Below, in pieces: positions 1-9,094 of a stretch of 64,000 nucleotides of DNA. The position numbers were made by a program, and so were the translations under genes. Origin of the DNA: Nitrospira sp. (GTDB lineage: Bacteria; Nitrospirota; Nitrospiria; Nitrospirales; Nitrospiraceae); contig CP092079.1 of assembly GCA_022226955.1 (NCBI GenBank), forward strand, positions 3,065,043-3,129,042. The letters run 5' to 3'. The notes beneath the pieces were generated by a model. The model was not told the DNA's origin. It worked only from the letters and a program-made list of their open reading frames with translations, and searched no databases. Position 1 is the first letter of the stretch. The number at the start of each line of letters is the position of its first letter.

Positions 1-1002
1 GTAATGACCAGAGGAGCCCGCTGGTGCATTGAGCGGGGGTATGGATGGCATCGCGATCTGGAGCGGATCGAGCAGGGAGGGTGTCTGTCTGGCGCCAATC
101 CAGACGCTGTCAGCGATCATGCGGTGAAGCGGGGGATGAACCAGCTGGGGACACTCGGTTCCGGGAACCATTATCTCGAAGTGCAAGTGGCTGCGAATGA
201 CCGGATTTTCGACCGGGAGACGGCGGCGGCCTTCGGCATTACCGGACAGGACCAGATTGTCGTCATGGTGCATTGCGGGTCGCGCGGATTCGGCCATCAA
301 GTGGCCAGCGACTATCTCAAGATTTTTGAGAAGGCGATGCGGCGCTACGGGATTACCGTGCCGGATCAGCAGCTGGCTTGCGCGCCGTTTCTATCCGAAG
401 AGGGCCAGGACTATTTCGCGGCGATGAATTGCGCCGCCAATACGGCGTTTGCCAATCGGCAGGTCATCACGCACCAGGTTCGCGAGGCCTTTGCCGCGGT
501 CTTCGGCCGTTCGGGAGAAGCGTTGGGCATGGAGCTGGTTTACGATGTGGCGCATAACATTGCCAAAGTGGAACGATATTCCGAAGGCGAGTTGGTCGTG
601 CATCGCAAAGGCGCGACCAGGGCGCTCGGCCCGGGCAGCCAGGATTTGCCGGCTTGCTACCGATCCGTCGGGCAGCCGGTAATTTGCGGCGGCTCGATGG
701 AAACAGGCTCGTATTTGCTCGCTGGCACGGCGCAGGCAACGGACGACACGTTTGGCTCGACGATGCACGGCTCCGGGCGCACGATGTCGCGGACGCAGGC
801 CAAGAAATCAATTCGTGGCGAGCAGCTGCTGCAGCAGATGAAACAGCGGGGCATCCTCGTGAAGGCGGTCTCGATGTCGGGGCTTGCGGAAGAGGCGGGA
901 TTCGCCTACAAAAATATTTCCGACGTCGTGGAGTCGGTCGACCGTGCGGGAATCACAAAAAAAGTAGCGGAACTTAGACCCATTGGCAATATTAAGGGGT
1001 AA
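1..1002 (+). CDS. rtcB: RNA-splicing ligase RtcB, 3' part (cut by window edge)
   Basis: RtcB joins RNA 2',3'-cyclic phosphate or 3'-phosphate ends to 5'-OH ends using GTP and Mn2+, in tRNA and RNA repair. The visible 333 codons carry the C-terminal two thirds of the family. Motifs seen are GSGNHYLEVQ, HCGSRGFGHQ, YDVAHNIAKVE and, near the end, STMHGSGRTMSR, which holds the histidine that is guanylylated in characterised RtcB. The frame is open at base 1, so the ATG at 4 is internal and the gene starts outside the window; family members are usually about 400-480 residues. The 3' end lies just before the PilZ gene, probably one transcript. Confidence 0.95.
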   Translation, partial: VMTRGARWCIERGYGWHRDLERIEQGGCLSGANPDAVSDHAVKRGMNQLGTLGSGNHYLEVQVAANDRIFDRETAAAFGITGQDQIVVMVHCGSRGFGHQVASDYLKIFEKAMRRYGITVPDQQLACAPFLSEEGQDYFAAMNCAANTAFANRQVITHQVREAFAAVFGRSGEALGMELVYDVAHNIAKVERYSEGELVVHRKGATRALGPGSQDLPACYRSVGQPVICGGSMETGSYLLAGTAQATDDTFGSTMHGSGRTMSRTQAKKSIRGEQLLQQMKQRGILVKAVSMSGLAEEAGFAYKNISDVVESVDRAGITKKVAELRPIGNIKG

Positions 1003-2153: not shown

Positions 2154-3816
2154 TGTTGATGCGCCGGCTGAGGTAGTCGTCGCGGAAGGCGACATCGTCC
2201 GTTTCGTGAAAGAGGTCGGAGTTGAACATCACGGCGCGGTTGGCGCGATAGGGCACCCGGATCGTTTGCGCGCCAGCCTGGGCGAGCCATTCGAGAATCT
2301 TCGGTTTATTCTGCTCGCTGTTATAGGCCGCGAAATTCCAATCCGCCGGGGCTTCTTTGTCATAGACTACTAGTCCGCCTTTCTCGGGATTCAGGTTCGC
2401 CTCGTCTGGGGTAATCCAAAAATTCACATTCACGGCAGCGGCGTCGGCATGGATGGAAAGGCCGCGCCTCGCGCTGTCCTGCTTGAAGGCCCAGGCCTGC
2501 GTGAGCCGGTGGTCCTTGAAGATGCTGGGAAAGGCGCGGCGCAATTCTTCCGCAATTTGGAGCAGGAGAGGCGTGGCGAATCCGTCGCCGAGGAACGCGC
2601 CTAGGTAACCGTTGTCGTAGTCTTTTTTCCAAATCGTGGATTCGAGACAAAAGTCGCGCAGGGCGGTCAGGGCCTCCGGCTTGAGCAGGTGGTCGATAAA
2701 TGTGACTTCCGGACGATGCCCGAGGTAGCGCGCTTCGATGGCTTGGACATCGAGCTGTGGGTTCAGGGCTCCGTCCGGCAGCCGTTCGCAAGGGGCGCGA
2801 TAGAGAAATCGATTGAAGGAGGGCGCAATGGCCGTGAGCGCCGCTGGATCGGCGGGACATCGATTTTTCGCGGGGTAGGCCGCTGCCAGGGCAATTTCCA
2901 ATCGTTCCAATGCATCAACGTATGCGCGATGTGATGGATCGAGGCGGCCACGCTCAATGAGCAGCCGGGTTTGTTCGGCATCGTGTTTCAGGCGTGACCG
3001 AAAGAGTGTGGTTTCTTGAACCGGTCCGCCATGCTGGTGCTTTGCCTTGGCCACTTGAGAGAAGCGGGCAATGGCATCGGCGTGATCGCCGTTCCACATG
3101 GCCGCGATGCCCAGGTTGTACAGCGCCTTCGATGATGTCGGCGTAATGCTCAAGGCCTGTTGGAATGAAGCGATGGCCTCTTCGCTCGCGCCCGTTTCCA
3201 GGAGTGCCAGGCCAAGGTTATTCCAGGCTTCGAAATGCGATGGCTTGAGCCGGATGGCTTCCCGGTAGGAGGCGATGGCCTTCCGGACGGCGTTCTGTTC
3301 CTTGAGGGCGACGCCGAGATTGTTGTGCGTGTCGGCATGCGCCGGATTGAGCGCCAGCGCGTTGCGATAGGTCGCAATGGCTGCATCAAGGCGATGCTGG
3401 TCTTTCAGGACATTGCCGAGATTGATCGTGGCATCCACATACTTCGGATTGAGCGCAATGGCCCGTTCGTAGGCGTGGATGGCGGCGTCCGCTTTCCCGG
3501 CTCGTTGCGTGACTACGCCCAGGTTGAACCAATACAGCGGGGAGTTGGGCGTGCCATCGATGGCGTGGGTAATAAGCTCGATTGCCTGATCGAAACTGCC
3601 GACACGATAGGCCAGCAACCCTAACAGATGCAGCGCTTCGGGGTGGCCTGGCGACATGTTCAGGACTAGCTGATAATTTCGCTCGGCTTCCGCCAGCTGA
3701 CCGGCCCGGTGATGACGTTTGCCTTGGTCGAGCAGATTGCGAATGGCGAAGCTGTCCGGCGCCGAGCCTGTTTTGCCCTGTTGCGATTCTTGCCGGCGGC
3801 GATCTGAACGATTCAT
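2119..3816 (-). CDS. TPR repeat protein with C-terminal 2OG-Fe(II) oxygenase-like domain
   Basis: This 565-residue protein begins with a polar tail. Roughly seven tetratricopeptide repeats follow (about residues 30-270, with recurrent ALxLNPxxxD and NLGxxxxxxG patterns), then a linker, and from about residue 370 a double-stranded beta-helix-type domain. That domain keeps an HAD triad (His456, Asp458), a distal histidine (about 537, DLFHETD) and a late RR pair (551-552). This matches the Fe(II)-binding HxD...H and 2-oxoglutarate-binding basic residue of prolyl-hydroxylase-like dioxygenases. No signal peptide is seen. The start ATG has AGGA upstream. The TPR part probably presents a protein substrate, which is unknown. 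Confidence 0.8.
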   Translation of the reverse strand: MNRSDRRRQESQQGKTGSAPDSFAIRNLLDQGKRHHRAGQLAEAERNYQLVLNMSPGHPEALHLLGLLAYRVGSFDQAIELITHAIDGTPNSPLYWFNLGVVTQRAGKADAAIHAYERAIALNPKYVDATINLGNVLKDQHRLDAAIATYRNALALNPAHADTHNNLGVALKEQNAVRKAIASYREAIRLKPSHFEAWNNLGLALLETGASEEAIASFQQALSITPTSSKALYNLGIAAMWNGDHADAIARFSQVAKAKHQHGGPVQETTLFRSRLKHDAEQTRLLIERGRLDPSHRAYVDALERLEIALAAAYPAKNRCPADPAALTAIAPSFNRFLYRAPCERLPDGALNPQLDVQAIEARYLGHRPEVTFIDHLLKPEALTALRDFCLESTIWKKDYDNGYLGAFLGDGFATPLLLQIAEELRRAFPSIFKDHRLTQAWAFKQDSARRGLSIHADAAAVNVNFWITPDEANLNPEKGGLVVYDKEAPADWNFAAYNSEQNKPKILEWLAQAGAQTIRVPYRANRAVMFNSDLFHETDDVAFRDDYLSRRINITLLYGYRHQA

Positions 3817-3900
3817 GGGCGGTTCCTGCGCTGGGTCGATGGGACTATCGACCGTCAGGAGCAGCCTATACGAAAGATGCGCGCGGGGTCAAAGGGCGGG
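3811..3900. repeat. direct repeat copy 1 (promoter/5' end of TPR-oxygenase gene)
   Basis: About 90 bases that include the start codon, 5' leader and promoter of the TPR-oxygenase gene recur, imperfectly, at 4693-4781. The core at 3851-3876 is identical in the other copy; the flanks diverge by substitutions and small indels. The two copies bracket the vapBC pair. Confidence 0.85.
3865..3892 (-). promoter_or_regulatory. putative sigma70 promoter of the TPR-oxygenase gene
   Basis: Read on the minus strand, TTGACC (3887-3892) is followed after 16 bases by TATAGG (3865-3870), about 50 bases before the ATG at 3816. It lies inside direct-repeat copy 1. Assigned by eye from consensus only. Confidence 0.4.
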
Positions 3901-3963
3901 CATCCGCATTGGGCCGAGGATGGGGAGTATTCGAGGGCGTGTAGGGTGGCGTAATGCGGACGA

Positions 3964-4353
3964 TCAGATGGAGGTGGGTGTGTAGAGATGCAGCCCAGGA
4001 ATCTTTTTGAAGTGAGCATCCAGGCTATAGACGCGACAATCGTGCTCAAGTGCCAAGGCCGCGATGAGCAGGTCTGATAGCGGCAAGGTAACCCCTTTGC
4101 GAAGGAGCTGTGCCGAAAGGTCCCCCGTTCGTATCCATGTAGCGGAGGTGACTTCATAGTACCGCAGCGCCAAGAGGGCGTCTGACAGCACCGTTCGTTC
4201 AGAGGGGATTCGACAGCCCTGAAGCAATTCGGCCAGCACCACGCCAACCAAGACCGCTTCATCGGCATCAATCAGCAAGTCGAGGGCGGTCTTTTCCGGT
4301 GAGTCCGGGCGATTGAAGAACGGAATCCAGACGGAGGTGTCAGCGATGACCAT
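3964..4353 (-). CDS. vapC: VapC-type PIN-domain ribonuclease toxin
   Basis: This 129-residue protein is a complete PIN domain. It has an N-terminal IADTSVWIPFF (first acidic residue), VVLAELLQG (conserved Glu in the middle), PLSDLLIAALAL (Asp of the DxxIAA motif) and a late YSLDAHF (last Asp). VapC toxins are Mg2+-dependent RNases that cut tRNA or rRNA when not bound by their antitoxin. The gene overlaps the upstream antitoxin by 14 bases, the usual vapBC arrangement. The active-site acids look intact, so it is probably functional. The RNA target cannot be read from sequence. Confidence 0.88.
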   Translation of the reverse strand: MVIADTSVWIPFFNRPDSPEKTALDLLIDADEAVLVGVVLAELLQGCRIPSERTVLSDALLALRYYEVTSATWIRTGDLSAQLLRKGVTLPLSDLLIAALALEHDCRVYSLDAHFKKIPGLHLYTPTSI

Positions 4354-4579
4354 GTCGGCGGCGCTTCAAGGAGGCTTGATGGCGAAGCTCGGTTGCCTCC
4401 AATTTTTTCCAATCCAAGTCGAGGGAGAGGGTGCCAGTCAAGGACTTGAGTTGATCCAGCTTTTTCCTCCGAATCAATTCTTTCGCCGCCTGGTGAATCG
4501 CCTCGGTTTTGGTTTTCGCGGAGGTCACGTCCATGAGCTCCCGAATAAGTTTTTCGTTGAGATCCAGCGTCGTGCGCAT
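4340..4579 (-). CDS. vapB: VapB-type ribbon-helix-helix antitoxin
   Basis: The protein is about 79 residues. The N-terminal MRTTLDLNEKLIRELM strand-helix and TKTEAIHQAAKEL helix match the type of VapB antitoxin that binds DNA as a dimer and blocks VapC through its C-terminal tail. The frame extends upstream to 4633, but the ATG at 4577-4579 is chosen because it has an AGAGGA site and begins right at the RHH strand, leaving the promoter free. It is probably autoregulated through the paired CATATG sites just upstream. Confidence 0.85.
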   Translation of the reverse strand: MRTTLDLNEKLIRELMDVTSAKTKTEAIHQAAKELIRRKKLDQLKSLTGTLSLDLDWKKLEATELRHQASLKRRRHGHR

Positions 4580-4604
4580 CAATAGATCCTCTGTATATGC
4601 TCGT

Positions 4605-4633
4605 ATCGTATGCATATGATTGGCATATGTCAA
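4605..4633 (-). promoter_or_regulatory. vapBC promoter with paired CATATG operator
   Basis: On the minus strand TTGACA (4628-4633) and TACGAT (4605-4610) are spaced by exactly 17 bases. Two GCATATG units (4612-4618 and 4623-4629) are 11 bases apart, one helical turn, and fill the spacer, as expected for cooperative binding by a ribbon-helix-helix repressor. Confidence 0.7.
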
Positions 4634-4698
4634 TTAATCCTGCGAGCAGATTCCTGATGAGGGAATGGAGCAGTCGGTCGCGGGAAGAGGATATTCAT
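4630..4698 (-). other. 22-codon leader ORF starting at the duplicated start codon
   Basis: Repeat copy 2 carries an ATGAAT start like that of the TPR-oxygenase gene. From 4698 it opens a 22-codon frame that ends with TGA overlapping the vapBC -35 region. It has no similarity to the oxygenase beyond the first two codons. It is best read as a by-product of the duplication; translation is unproven. Confidence 0.3.
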
Positions 4699-4781
4699 CG
4701 ACGGTTCCTGCGCGGTATCCACGGGACGGTCGACCGTCAGGAGCAGCCTATACGAAAGGTGCGCGGAGGCAAAGGGGGCGG
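4693..4781. repeat. direct repeat copy 2 (duplicated promoter region)
   Basis: This is the second copy of the promoter/leader segment found at 3811-3900, on the far side of vapBC and in the same orientation. It contains the perfect palindrome GACGGTCGACCGTC (4725-4738), which is broken in copy 1. A promoter-like TATAGG remains, but its -35 spacing is only 14 bases. Confidence 0.85.
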
Positions 4782-5041
4782 AGCCACTCAGTCCTGGTCA
4801 TTTATGCAGAGGAAAGAGGGTGGTGACAAGGGGGTGCGATTGGCGCGAGTACGGGACTGAAGGCCAAGAGAGTCTGGTTGTGTGATGGGGAGTAGTGTGT
4901 GGGGAGGGGGCACAGTGGCTGTGCCTACTGTGAAAAGCCGGGTGATTAATTGGGCTGAAATAGGTAAGCTGCTAGCCTAATGGAACGCGAAGTCCCCGTT
5001 CCACGTGTGACTGTCTTGATGTGATTTTCAGTGAGGGAGCA
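4782..5041. other. intergenic stretch before the PHP-SMC gene
   Basis: No convincing gene is present. It is G-rich on the plus strand, with small inverted repeats such as CACAG-TGG-CTGTG and GGAACG/CGTTCC (around 4982-5001). It presumably holds the promoter of the following two-gene cassette; no clear -35/-10 pair was found. Confidence 0.4.
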
Positions 5042-7705
5042 ATGACTGAAATGCAACCGCTTAACCGCAGAGGTATGGTTTTTGACGAAGGGGCGCAGTG
5101 GATACGCGCAGACTTTCATCTGCACACCAGGGCCGACCGCGAATTCAAGTATGTGGGTGATGACAACTTTTACAACAGCAACTATGTCGATACGCTGGAG
5201 AAAGCGCACATCCGGCTGGGCGTCATCGCCAATCACAACAAGTTTGACTTCGATGAGTTCAACGCATTGCGCAAGACAGCCAAAAAGAAGGGAATTGCGC
5301 TGTTGCCAGGTGTCGAGTTGTCGGTCAATGACGGAGCCAATGGCATCCACACGCTGGTCGTCTTTTCTGACGATTGGTTAGCTGATGGGAATGACCATAT
5401 CAATCCCTTTTTGACCGTCGCTTTTGAAGGAAAAATTCCCACTCAGTATGAGCAGGAAAACGGACGGTCTTCGCGTTCTCTCTTGGATACCATCAAGAAG
5501 CTGGAAAGCTACCACCGCGACTTTTTTCTGGTCTTTGCCCATGTGGAAGCTCCGAGCGGACTTTGGGCCGAGTTGGACGGAGGACGCCTTTCCGAACTGG
5601 GGCAAAACGAATTCTTCCGGCGTCGAACCCTTGGTTTTCAGAAAGTTCGCACCCACGATGGTGCAGGAAAAGACAAACCTAGCCGCGCCAAGATTCGAGG
5701 CTGGTTGCGAGACTGGTATCCCGCCGAGCTTGAGGGTAGTGATCCAAAATGCATCGAAGAAGTCGGGCGGGGCGAAATCTGTTACCTCAAGTTGGGCGAG
5801 CTGTCTTTTGCTGCGGTCAAGTTCGCCTTGAGCGCTCACGCTTCACATGTTGCGCCAGATCCGCCCAAGCATCAGGCATCGTACATTCGCTGCATCCACT
5901 TCGACGGCGGCATCCTCGACGGACAGACGCTCCACTTCTCCTCCGAACTCAACACGCTCATCGGTATCCGTGGCAGCGGAAAGTCGTCCATCCTGGAAGC
6001 GGTGCGCTATGCCCTCGACATCCCACGGGGCGAGAAGGCGCAGGATACTAAGTACAAAGACGAGTTGATCCGTTATACCCTAGGCAGCGGCGGTAAGGTG
6101 GCGCTCACGGCGTGCGATGTGTATGGGCAAGAGTTCACCATTTCCCGCATCTTCCGTGAAGCGCCGAATGTCTATCTGAACGACAAATTACAGCCCGGCG
6201 TGTCGATTCGGGAAACTGTTCTGCGCCGACCCATCTATTTCGGGCAGAAAGATCTCTCCAGCACCGGCGAAGGTTTCGAGACTGATCTGGTGGAAAAGCT
6301 GGTCGGTGAGAAGCTTCATGCGTTGCGTAGCGACATCGAAACCCAACGCCAGCGCGTACGTGAAGCAGCTCAGCGCTGGCTCAAGCTCAGCAATACCGCC
6401 GAACTCAAACGCGACTTTGAGACCCAGCTCACCGATGCCAACTTCCGTCTGAAGAAATTCGAAGAGTATGGTGTCGCCGACAAGCTCCAGAAGCGCTTGG
6501 GGTTCCAGCAGGATGCCGCTGCGCTCACGCGTCTGAGTGAACGGGCCAACAATCTTGTGCTTGCCTTGGACGGCTTGATTGCCGAGCATGAGGACGAACT
6601 GCACAATGCGATGAGCTACGTATCCAGACAGAATCCGGAGTTCTTCGCCGCGTACTATGTCGAGTTTTCCCACCTCATTACCAAGATGGAGCAGCTCAAG
6701 CAGATCGAGCAGGATGCGCGCGCCATTGTTGGCCGTCTTCAGACGAAGCAGGGCGAGTTCGAAGGCGCGCGCAAGAGCCTTCAGGAAGAGTTCGCGCAAG
6801 TCGAGCGGCAACTGGCTCAGGAACTCAAGCAAACCGGCATGACCGCTATCCAGCCGGATGACTTCCTGACCCAGCAACAGCGCAAGACCAAGGCGGAGCA
6901 GATGCTGGAGGCACTGGCCAAGCAAGAGTCACAGCAGACCAGCATCCGCGATGCGCTGTTTGCTGAAATCGACAAGCTCAACAAGCTTTGGCTGAGCGAG
7001 TTCAACACTATCAAAGCGGAGCTAGACCGTGTGAATGCCAGCCACACCGCCCTGCAGATCGAAGCCGACTTCAAAGGTGATAAGGAAGCTGCCATTAGCT
7101 TCATGCAGCAGCTTTTCAAAGGCAGCAACATCCGCGAAAGCACGCTGCGGGCGGTCATGGAAGGCTACGCCGATTTCGGCGGACTACTGCGAGCGCTGCC
7201 AGGAGCGTTGGCTAAGGCCGGTAGCACGCCCGAGGTCTTTGAAAAGACCTTCATGCAGAATCTGGTCGAGTTTGTCACCTGGCAGGTGCCCAATCGCTTC
7301 GTGATCTGTTATCGCAGCAAGGAACTGAAGCACCATTCGCTTGGGCAGCGCGCTTCGGCCTTGCTGCTGTATGTCCTCAGCCAGCGCCAGAACGACGTCA
7401 TCATCATCGACCAGCCGGAAGACGATCTGGACAACCAGACCATCTACGACGATGTGATCAAGCTGCTGCGTGAGATGAAACCTCACGTCCAATTCATCTT
7501 CGCCACCCATAACGCCAATTTCCCGGTGCTGGGTGATGCAGAACAGGTACTCGCCTGCCAGTACCAGGATGAAAAGGTCGTCGTACGAAGCGGCAGCATC
7601 GACGCCCGCCTGATGCAGGAAGCCATCATTAACATTATGGAAGGCGGCCAGGAGGCCTTCAACCGTCGCAAAGAGGTTTACAATCTATGGAAACCACAGA
7701 GCTGA
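5042..7705 (+). CDS. PHP-domain/SMC-like ATPase (TrlF family; Ppl-type defence candidate)
   Basis: A large 887-residue protein. The N-terminus is a PHP phosphoesterase domain: RADFHLHT (His26, His28), IANHNKFD, LLPGVELS, a GIHTL histidine and an FAHVEAPSG histidine, the usual metal ligands. A Walker A, GIRGSGKSS, lies near residue 307, a Q-loop at YFGQKDLSS, a long coiled-coil middle, then a signature-like HHSLGQRAS and Walker B IIIDQPEDD near 786 followed by FATHN. Proteins of this layout are the TrlF family; a PHP-SMC protein named Ppl was reported as an anti-phage gene. The ATG at 5042 (GAGGGA upstream) is preferred over GTG 5021. The last 19 bases overlap the next gene. Confidence 0.85.
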   Translation: MTEMQPLNRRGMVFDEGAQWIRADFHLHTRADREFKYVGDDNFYNSNYVDTLEKAHIRLGVIANHNKFDFDEFNALRKTAKKKGIALLPGVELSVNDGANGIHTLVVFSDDWLADGNDHINPFLTVAFEGKIPTQYEQENGRSSRSLLDTIKKLESYHRDFFLVFAHVEAPSGLWAELDGGRLSELGQNEFFRRRTLGFQKVRTHDGAGKDKPSRAKIRGWLRDWYPAELEGSDPKCIEEVGRGEICYLKLGELSFAAVKFALSAHASHVAPDPPKHQASYIRCIHFDGGILDGQTLHFSSELNTLIGIRGSGKSSILEAVRYALDIPRGEKAQDTKYKDELIRYTLGSGGKVALTACDVYGQEFTISRIFREAPNVYLNDKLQPGVSIRETVLRRPIYFGQKDLSSTGEGFETDLVEKLVGEKLHALRSDIETQRQRVREAAQRWLKLSNTAELKRDFETQLTDANFRLKKFEEYGVADKLQKRLGFQQDAAALTRLSERANNLVLALDGLIAEHEDELHNAMSYVSRQNPEFFAAYYVEFSHLITKMEQLKQIEQDARAIVGRLQTKQGEFEGARKSLQEEFAQVERQLAQELKQTGMTAIQPDDFLTQQQRKTKAEQMLEALAKQESQQTSIRDALFAEIDKLNKLWLSEFNTIKAELDRVNASHTALQIEADFKGDKEAAISFMQQLFKGSNIRESTLRAVMEGYADFGGLLRALPGALAKAGSTPEVFEKTFMQNLVEFVTWQVPNRFVICYRSKELKHHSLGQRASALLLYVLSQRQNDVIIIDQPEDDLDNQTIYDDVIKLLREMKPHVQFIFATHNANFPVLGDAEQVLACQYQDEKVVVRSGSIDARLMQEAIINIMEGGQEAFNRRKEVYNLWKPQS

Positions 7706-8871
7706 TCGACATCCTCAGCCGTGGCGAGGACAGCCGCCATCAGTTCAAGTCAGACATCACCAATGCCGATGCCTTGGCGGCGGAAATCGTCGCTTTCAGT
7801 AACACCGCAGGCGGGAAGATATTCATCGGTGTGCAAAACGACGGCTCAGTGCTTGGCCTGTCAGGCGCAGCCATTGACCGTTTGAACCAGCTTGTTTCAA
7901 ACAGCGCATCGCAAAACGTTCGTCCCGCTGTGAATCCGTTCACCGAAAACGTGTCGCACCCCAATGGTACGGTGATGGTGATCTTCATCCCTGAAGGCAT
8001 CAGCAAGCCTTATATGGATAAAAACGGTGTTATTTGGGTAAAGAACGGCGCAGACAAACGCCGTGCTACCTCCCGCGAGGAAATCCAACGCCTGTTCCAG
8101 CAGGCGGGGCTAGTGCATGCCGACGAAACGGCCGTGGCAAGCCTGAGCGCGGGCGATGTGGATATGCCCTATTTTGAAGCTTTCTTCGAACAGCAGTTCG
8201 GCGAGCCACTTGCCCGGCACAACCAGTCTCTGCCCCAGTTGCTGACCAATATGAACCTCATGAACCAGGGACAGCTCAATGTGGCCGGAGGCCTGCTGTT
8301 CGCCAAGGCCCCGCATTACGCGCTGCCTGCGTTCATTGTCAAAGCAGTCGTCTTTGTTGGCAATCGGATTGAGGATGAACGCTATCTCGATAGCCGTGAC
8401 ATCACCGGCAAGCTGGCTGACGTGTTCCAGCAGACGCTGGGTTTTATCATAGCCAATACCCACGCTATTCAGGGCGAGCAGGGTTTCAACTCACAAGGCC
8501 AGGCCGAGATTCCGCGCATTGTATGGGAAGAACTGGTGGTTAACGCGCTCATCCACCGAGACTACTTCATCAGCGCCCCGGTGCGCGTGCTGGTGTTTGT
8601 GGATCGGGTCGAGATCATCAGTCCCGGCCACCTGCCCAACAACTTAACCATCGAAAATGTCAAGGCGGGAAACTCCAACATCCGTAATCCCGTTTTAGCA
8701 TCTTTTTCCGCCAAGCTCCTGCCCTATCGAGGCCTGGGCAGCGGCCTGCTGCGCGCTCTGCGAGCCTGGCCCGAGATCGAACTCGTCGACGACCGTAACG
8801 GTAATCTTTTCAAAGCCATCGTGATGCGATCAGGCGTATGGTCATTTGAGCCGGCGCAAGATCGCGCATGA
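7687..8871 (+). CDS. AlbA_2 (Schlafen-like) / HATPase_c_4 domain protein
   Basis: This 394-residue protein opens with an AlbA_2 domain (about residues 10-125; AEIVAFSNTAGGKIFIGVQNDG is the diagnostic stretch, in two adjoining parts). It ends with the GHKL-like HATPase_c_4 fold (about 275-380; ELVVNALIHRDY, SPGHLPNNLT, NSNIRNPVLA, GLGSGLLRAL). Such proteins are often annotated as ATP-dependent helicase-related or transcriptional regulators, and AlbA_2 domains occur in defence loci. The EFK motif of the Schlafen-like core reads QFK here. It starts inside the 3' end of the PHP-SMC gene (19-base overlap), indicating translational coupling and a joint function. Confidence 0.8.
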   Translation: METTELIDILSRGEDSRHQFKSDITNADALAAEIVAFSNTAGGKIFIGVQNDGSVLGLSGAAIDRLNQLVSNSASQNVRPAVNPFTENVSHPNGTVMVIFIPEGISKPYMDKNGVIWVKNGADKRRATSREEIQRLFQQAGLVHADETAVASLSAGDVDMPYFEAFFEQQFGEPLARHNQSLPQLLTNMNLMNQGQLNVAGGLLFAKAPHYALPAFIVKAVVFVGNRIEDERYLDSRDITGKLADVFQQTLGFIIANTHAIQGEQGFNSQGQAEIPRIVWEELVVNALIHRDYFISAPVRVLVFVDRVEIISPGHLPNNLTIENVKAGNSNIRNPVLASFSAKLLPYRGLGSGLLRALRAWPEIELVDDRNGNLFKAIVMRSGVWSFEPAQDRA

Positions 8872-8972
8872 GTGAGCAAGTTGCTTGCACCCTTCTGGGC
8901 CGCACCTTCGATGTGACTTCGGTCGTTAATGGTGGACGTTATGAGTTGCCACCTCGTGCCGTCTGCCGTTGA
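8868..8972 (+). pseudogene. 34-codon truncated third ORF of the cassette
   Basis: An ATGA overlap at 8868-8871 couples a short frame (34 codons) to the AlbA_2 gene. It begins MSEQVACTLLGRTFDVTSV and stops after 34 codons with no downstream continuation. The overlap style is that of a real third operon gene whose remainder has been lost at the island edge. A genuine mini-protein is possible. Confidence 0.4.
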
Positions 8973-9094
8973 TGGGATCACTGTTGGATCCATGCGACTG
9001 ATGAGAGAGTCCCAATCTGGGAATGTGTGTTATTGGCAGTGCGTCAGCTGAGGAAGCGGCTGATGTGAGAATACGTTGAAGGTCTGGTTGGGCT

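Follow-up and report, generated by a model that had tools for sequence, protein, structure and literature searches.

In a 64,000-nucleotide stretch of a Nitrospira sp. genome (assembly GCA_022226955.1, contig CP092079.1, positions 3,065,043 to 3,129,042 of the forward strand, called here the window) we have analysed two overlapping genes that correspond to trlF and trlG of the Photorhabdus "temperature restriction locus" (TRL), published in 2020 (PMC7554251). The preliminary description of this DNA had presented the pair as a candidate two-protein defence system. Actually, the pair had already been published as trlF-trlG (PMC7554251), and the window copy is a new stand-alone member of this known pair and not a new system. 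We favour, as a reasonably probable explanation, that TrlG is a Schlafen-type growth-arrest effector, that TrlF is the ATPase that senses the trigger or restrains TrlG, and that together they form a stand-alone, acquired back-up module of abortive defence. This reading comes from the genetics done in Photorhabdus and from the pattern in which the pair is embedded in defence loci.

In Photorhabdus the TRL operon is induced by heat and its deletion frees growth, and clones growing stably at 36 C were found to carry missense, nonsense or insertion sequence (IS) mutations in trlG (PMC7554251). Approximately 16 distinct arrest-free alleles were described in trlG and none in trlF, which is more than twice as long, an absence remarked by the authors themselves (PMC7554251). 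It is on these genetics that we take TrlG to be the arresting protein, and the lack of trlF mutants speaks for a toxicity that can do without TrlF. The preliminary description had allowed the partner of the PHP protein to be either a regulator or an effector; the published data favour the second role, with TrlG and not the PHP protein as the arrest effector (PMC7554251). Furthermore, the TrlG of the window agrees with the Photorhabdus protein at 10 of the 11 distinct positions of missense mutations, if an inferred shift of one residue beyond residue 36 is allowed for.

The gene trlG (7687..8871, forward strand) codes for 394 amino acids (aa) and is the candidate growth-arrest effector gene. 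Its product contains a Schlafen domain, SLFN_AlbA_2 (Pfam PF04326), at residues 14-127 (5e-21; 75.8 bits with a cut-off of 25.3) and a GHKL-like domain, HATPase_c_4, at residues 297-361 (2e-13). The AlphaFold model of TrlG (predicted local distance difference test, pLDDT, 84) was matched by Foldseek to DIP2311 (3lmm), to human SLFN5/11/12/13/14 and to the tRNase domain of SAMD9, and at weaker E-values to histidine-kinase-like structures. Residue E14 is kept and nearly invariant along 34 aligned members. A nuclease activity of TrlG is plausible.

The gene trlF (5042..7705, forward strand; 887 aa) codes for a protein that joins a PHP-type phosphoesterase domain to an ABC ATPase of the SMC/Rad50 type with coiled coils. 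Its ATG at 5042 is preceded by GTGAGGGAG, and a GTG at 5021 is a possible alternative start. The two open reading frames (ORFs) are intact and overlap by exactly 19 bases (7687..7705, forward strand), which confirms what the preliminary description had observed. The overlap also has 19 bases in many relatives and ~13-22 bases in others. TrlF scored 572 bits over residues 17-881 with the NCBIfam model of the TrlF family, NF045780 (curated cut-off 350). Ppl, a single-gene system, has the same layout of PHP plus SMC-type ATPase; with the Ppl model (NF042955) TrlF reached 139 bits, far under the cut-off of 1000, and was rejected as a Ppl member on this score. From the label Ppl/TrlF-like used previously only the TrlF half can therefore be kept, and the anti-phage result that had been quoted for the PHP-SMC protein is not transferable, since it belongs to Ppl and the window protein to the TrlF family. 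The similarity to AriA was only 36 bits, in the region of the ATPase.

TrlF was not recognised by the Pfam PHP model itself. Support for the PHP fold comes from the family model, the invariant residues and a structural match of the TrlF model (pLDDT 76) to the PHP phosphoesterase 3o0f. In an alignment with 23 relatives, H26, H28, H65, E92, H103 and H167 of the PHP region were invariant or nearly so, and the same applies to the Walker A (GIRGSGKSS), signature (HSLGQ) and Walker B (DQPEDDLD) motifs of the ATPase. The model also matched the folds of MukB, SMC, Rad50, the Wadjet protein JetC (JetABC) and the Lamassu heads.

The preliminary description also held that the two genes are in fixed coupling, and the genomes agree with it well outside this strain. 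A phylum-wide sample, collected with TrlF as the only query, contains 20 TrlF loci that exceed the family cut-off, and 15 of these have an adjacent TrlG-type gene. The overall figure is 45 of 50 loci, biased by the many loci that were fetched via TrlG (the script gave 44, and L172, in which the gene is short, was added by eye). The exceptions fall in a deep clade of longer TrlF proteins (about 950-1040 aa), in which L162 is the only locus with a TrlG-type gene. The divergences of TrlF and TrlG are correlated (rho 0.89, with a maximum of 0.42 over 500 permutations), and by all these comparisons the coupling is genuine and ancient. Besides, TrlG has a second clade, made up of longer proteins that occur solo, without TrlF, some of them in hsd operons with PrrC. 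In L063, L082, L084 and L088 these homologues are located straight after hsdR in type I restriction-modification (R-M) operons, two of them (L084 and L088) with PrrC; here the Schlafen-like protein is put to use a second time, independently.

Long-form TrlF proteins are found at type I loci that lack TrlG (L149, L163 and L157), and this speaks for the rather unlikely possibility, the main line of the preliminary description, that TrlF is the effector. On the model of Wadjet, Lamassu and Ppl, the SMC-type ATPase would detect phage or plasmid DNA and the PHP domain would hydrolyse nucleotides or nucleic acid, while TrlG would act as regulator. The strong conservation of the PHP and ATPase motifs and the presence of Wadjet JetC and Lamassu heads among the structural neighbours also speak for such a role. 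However, the arrest in Photorhabdus needs TrlG, no lesion of trlF was selected despite its length (PMC7554251), and the window copy has Ala at the near-invariant position 265.

The other line of evidence for TrlFG as a back-up defence module is its neighbourhood. Type I R-M genes with PrrC surround or adjoin the pair in five loci, including enterobacterial plasmids (L004, L005, L009, L016 and L019), and the gene order in L012 is hsdM-hsdS-trlF-trlG-hsdR. In E. coli we found the pair in 40 records (38 of 5426 genomes), and type I restriction genes overlap it in 40 out of 40. Type III R-M genes are its neighbours in L153, L167 and L172, in the last two with the order mod-trlF-trlG-res. BREX-1 loci with the arrangement pglX-trlF-trlG-pglZ-brxL are L011, L034 and L168, and in L023, a metagenome-assembled genome of Desulfosporosinus, TrlFG lies between pglXI and brxH of a BREX-3 system confirmed by PADLOC. 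In the DISARM-like cases, which are L165 and, by homology, L151, genes for DrmMI and a DrmD-like protein precede TrlFG and an XRE/ImmA-like gene comes after it. Three loci (L014, L015 and L018) have the pair in or next to an operon of MmeI methyltransferase, helicase and GIY-YIG (T5orf172) genes, possibly a restriction system in its own right that has not been described before. In L020 and L029 a gene of the AIPR family (abortive infection phage resistance) is directly upstream of trlF-trlG. PADLOC also detected a candidate ATPase, PDC-S06, near TrlFG in a Yersinia ruckeri plasmid (L008, 10819-13470).

Of the 20 TrlF loci in the phylum sample 12 had defence neighbours, compared with a single one of the 20 control windows (Fisher p = 4e-4). 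This is the enrichment to be expected from the preliminary description, and with the pairing in other genomes it means that the refutation test proposed there did not bring the idea down. The control windows were set at round coordinates and the extra Pfam and PADLOC checks were applied to the TrlF loci only, so the fairer figure is that obtained with automatic hidden Markov model (HMM) calls only, 9 of 20 (p = 0.008). By parsimony, the labels of partner system require 20 changes on the TrlF tree, indicating that the pair is the stable unit and that what is exchanged is the host defence system. At 22 of the 50 TrlF loci there was no partner system, a number that includes short contigs and is an upper bound on the stand-alone copies. 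Regarding phages, the matches listed from the phage collection included only relatives with <30% identity, and viral contigs contained only a few TrlG relatives at 50-54% identity, so it is improbable that phages typically carry TrlFG.

These neighbourhoods also have to be set against a reading in which TrlFG is a growth-control module for temperature stress, not anti-phage, and its proximity to R-M reflects shared mobile islands. The sole published phenotype is indeed a heat-induced growth arrest (PMC7554251), and the 22 loci in which the pair is alone as far as the contigs reach include the window, whose genome is without the usual partners. But heat may just trigger an otherwise silent toxin, and the genes are often found within R-M or BREX operons, between the methyltransferase and restriction genes and with overlapping frames, something that has happened many independent times. 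We therefore give this explanation little credit.

The window copy is part of an insertion of ~5.2 kb (3901..9094) that contains vapBC and trlFG and that three relatives of the genus (G067, G002 and G050), intact at both flanks, do not have. In all three the identity is ~80% on both sides and the equivalent of 3900 is joined straight to that of 9095, which bears out the island between core genes that had been proposed. Over 3.75 kb the DNA of the pair is 81-82% identical to that of copies from other phyla, carried on plasmids of enterobacteria or Pseudomonas or in the genomes of proteobacteria, a similarity well beyond chance, and the homology spans solely from 5075 to about 8832. The GC content is 55-56% in the trlFG pair and 59-62% in the flanks. 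In the TrlF tree the window protein belongs to a well-supported clade with MmeI-linked and stand-alone copies from Pseudomonadota (87% identity with L018, from Pseudomonas chengduensis) and is distant from the other TrlF proteins of its own phylum, and on this basis it was acquired horizontally.

An acquired copy could also be a relic, what is left of the middle of a larger R-M operon whose other genes were lost after the transfer. Near relatives do have hsdR or genes of the MmeI operon directly upstream, hsdS of the type I copies occupies the place of a third frame found after trlG, the DNA homology has the limits mentioned above, and Asp265 is changed. Nevertheless both ORFs are intact, the ratio of nonsynonymous to synonymous substitutions (dN/dS) with relatives is 0.07-0.09 (much of this divergence falls on other branches), further stand-alone copies (L007, L013 and L017) are among those most closely related to it, and no hsd remnant was seen on either side of the pair, so that we consider the relic unlikely. 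Nor do modification or restriction genes flank the pair in the window.

The third frame (8868..8972, forward strand; 34 aa) overlaps trlG by ATGA, as had been noticed, and hsdS of the type I copies begins at the equivalent ATGA. Its status as a gene could not be maintained, given that tblastn found no convincing homologue in the fetched loci outside the window itself; there were also zero matches in Pfam, NCBIfam and PADLOC, and it is not a conserved gene. We also rejected it as a remnant of HsdS, its peptide being without similarity to this protein, and rejected a remnant of HsdR upstream of the pair, none being present in any frame.

As described previously, a toxin-antitoxin system, vapBC (3964..4633, reverse strand; vapB 4340-4633 and vapC 3964-4353, with the Pfam domains VapB_antitoxin and PIN), lies beside the pair. 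It is flanked by a direct repeat of 89 bp with 81% identity (3811-3899 and 4693-4781), the first copy of which is core intergenic flank conserved in the relatives, suggesting that vapBC is a separate insertion beside trlFG. Just outside the island, at window positions 4-1002, there is a frame recognised by eye as an RtcB-like RNA ligase, core and conserved in the relatives; its vicinity to a putative RNase is probably a coincidence.

Bringing these data together under the back-up abortive module that we favour, TrlG, with its AlbA_2 RNase fold and GHKL-like domain, would arrest growth once released, most likely by cleavage of tRNA or other RNA. TrlF, by means of its SMC-type ATPase and PHP domain, would sense the trigger and control TrlG, more probably restraining it than being required for the toxicity. 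The likely trigger would be an attack by phages in which a defence system based on DNA modification is engaged or put out of action, and TrlFG would provide a second, abortive layer with anti-phage activity, in the manner of PrrC and PARIS. Since stand-alone copies exist, that of the window among them, a resident R-M or BREX complex cannot be a strict requirement for the module. It is possible, and less probable than the above, that TrlFG is a general guard of modification-based immunity (type I and III R-M, BREX-1, BREX-3, DISARM-like and MmeI-type), in which TrlF would sense the inhibition or engagement of the system and free TrlG, and that the stand-alone copies sense a phage feature directly.

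Several observations weigh against the favoured explanation. The association of TrlFG with defence genes is genomic and is no proof of function, and our search of the literature for TrlF together with defence terms found no phage assay of TrlFG. Schlafen RNases such as SLFN11 and SLFN13 have three acidic catalytic residues. Residue 19 of TrlG, which we take to be the likely site of the second one, is Gln in 34 of the 34 aligned members, making the RNase activity doubtful. The TrlF of the window carries Ala265 instead of the Asp present in 21 of the 23 aligned sequences (the loss is found also in L037), and His in place of the near-invariant Arg269 of the PHP region (residues 264-270, about 5831-5851). 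The model has low confidence around position 265, and this stretch could be part of the PHP metal site; the two changes possibly weaken the PHP site in the window protein. In addition, profile searches of the host genome (a single contig, 99.8% complete) found no HSDR_N, N6_Mtase or PglZ, and N6_N4_Mtase matched at sub-threshold level only, leaving no type III-like methylase above the cut-off. Without detectable HsdR, N6 methylase or PglZ, no type I, type III or BREX system is apparent in this genome, and the window copy cannot guard such a system.

TrlFG has a published growth-arrest phenotype and no accepted function, at a time when bacterial Schlafens and modules that guard restriction systems are active topics. 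What is new here is the promiscuity of the trlFG cassette, which recurs at modification-based defence loci of at least six system kinds, a comparative pattern that recasts the "temperature restriction locus" as a testable hypothesis of back-up abortive immunity. If true, this immunity would explain the presence of TrlFG on conjugative plasmids of Enterobacterales and Pseudomonas.

Among known systems, the TRL of Photorhabdus laumondii (trlR-trlF-trlG; PMC7554251) is like the window in its two genes and their order, and the domains of TrlG are laid out in the same way (AlbA_2 at 14-128 and HATPase_c_4 at 298-365 in Photorhabdus, 14-127 and 297-361 in the window). They differ in host, in insertion site and in trlR, since no ORF like this regulator (79 aa in Photorhabdus) exists between vapB and trlF in the window; also, the Photorhabdus locus has a growth phenotype whereas the window copy is known here from its genes alone. 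The enterobacterial plasmid and E. coli loci with the order hsdR-trlF-trlG-hsdS-prrC-hsdM share 81% DNA identity in both genes and the same 19-base overlap; unlike them, the window has no local hsd or prrC and its genome no HsdR or N6 methylase. A paper from 2025 described an RptR-associated pair of "RNA-binding protein + AAA-like ATPase" between hsdS and hsdR, with no function assigned there (PMC12255303), that judged by its description alone is the same gene pair as TrlFG; RptR itself is absent from the window. The proteins proposed as back-up effectors in BREX, within BREX loci, resemble TrlG in the fusion of Schlafen to a minimal histidine-kinase-like domain (PMC12839542). They have a winged helix-turn-helix (wHTH) tail, whereas TrlG linked to TrlF, at about 385 aa, is the shorter protein and has TrlF as its neighbour; the text of that paper makes no mention of a PHP domain. 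Finally, PARIS (AriA/AriB) and PrrC would work like TrlFG, with an ABC-type ATPase that controls a translation-blocking effector inside R-M or BREX loci. The difference is in the effector, which in place of the TOPRIM protein AriB or the anticodon nuclease PrrC, both absent from the window, is here an AlbA_2/HATPase_c_4 partner.

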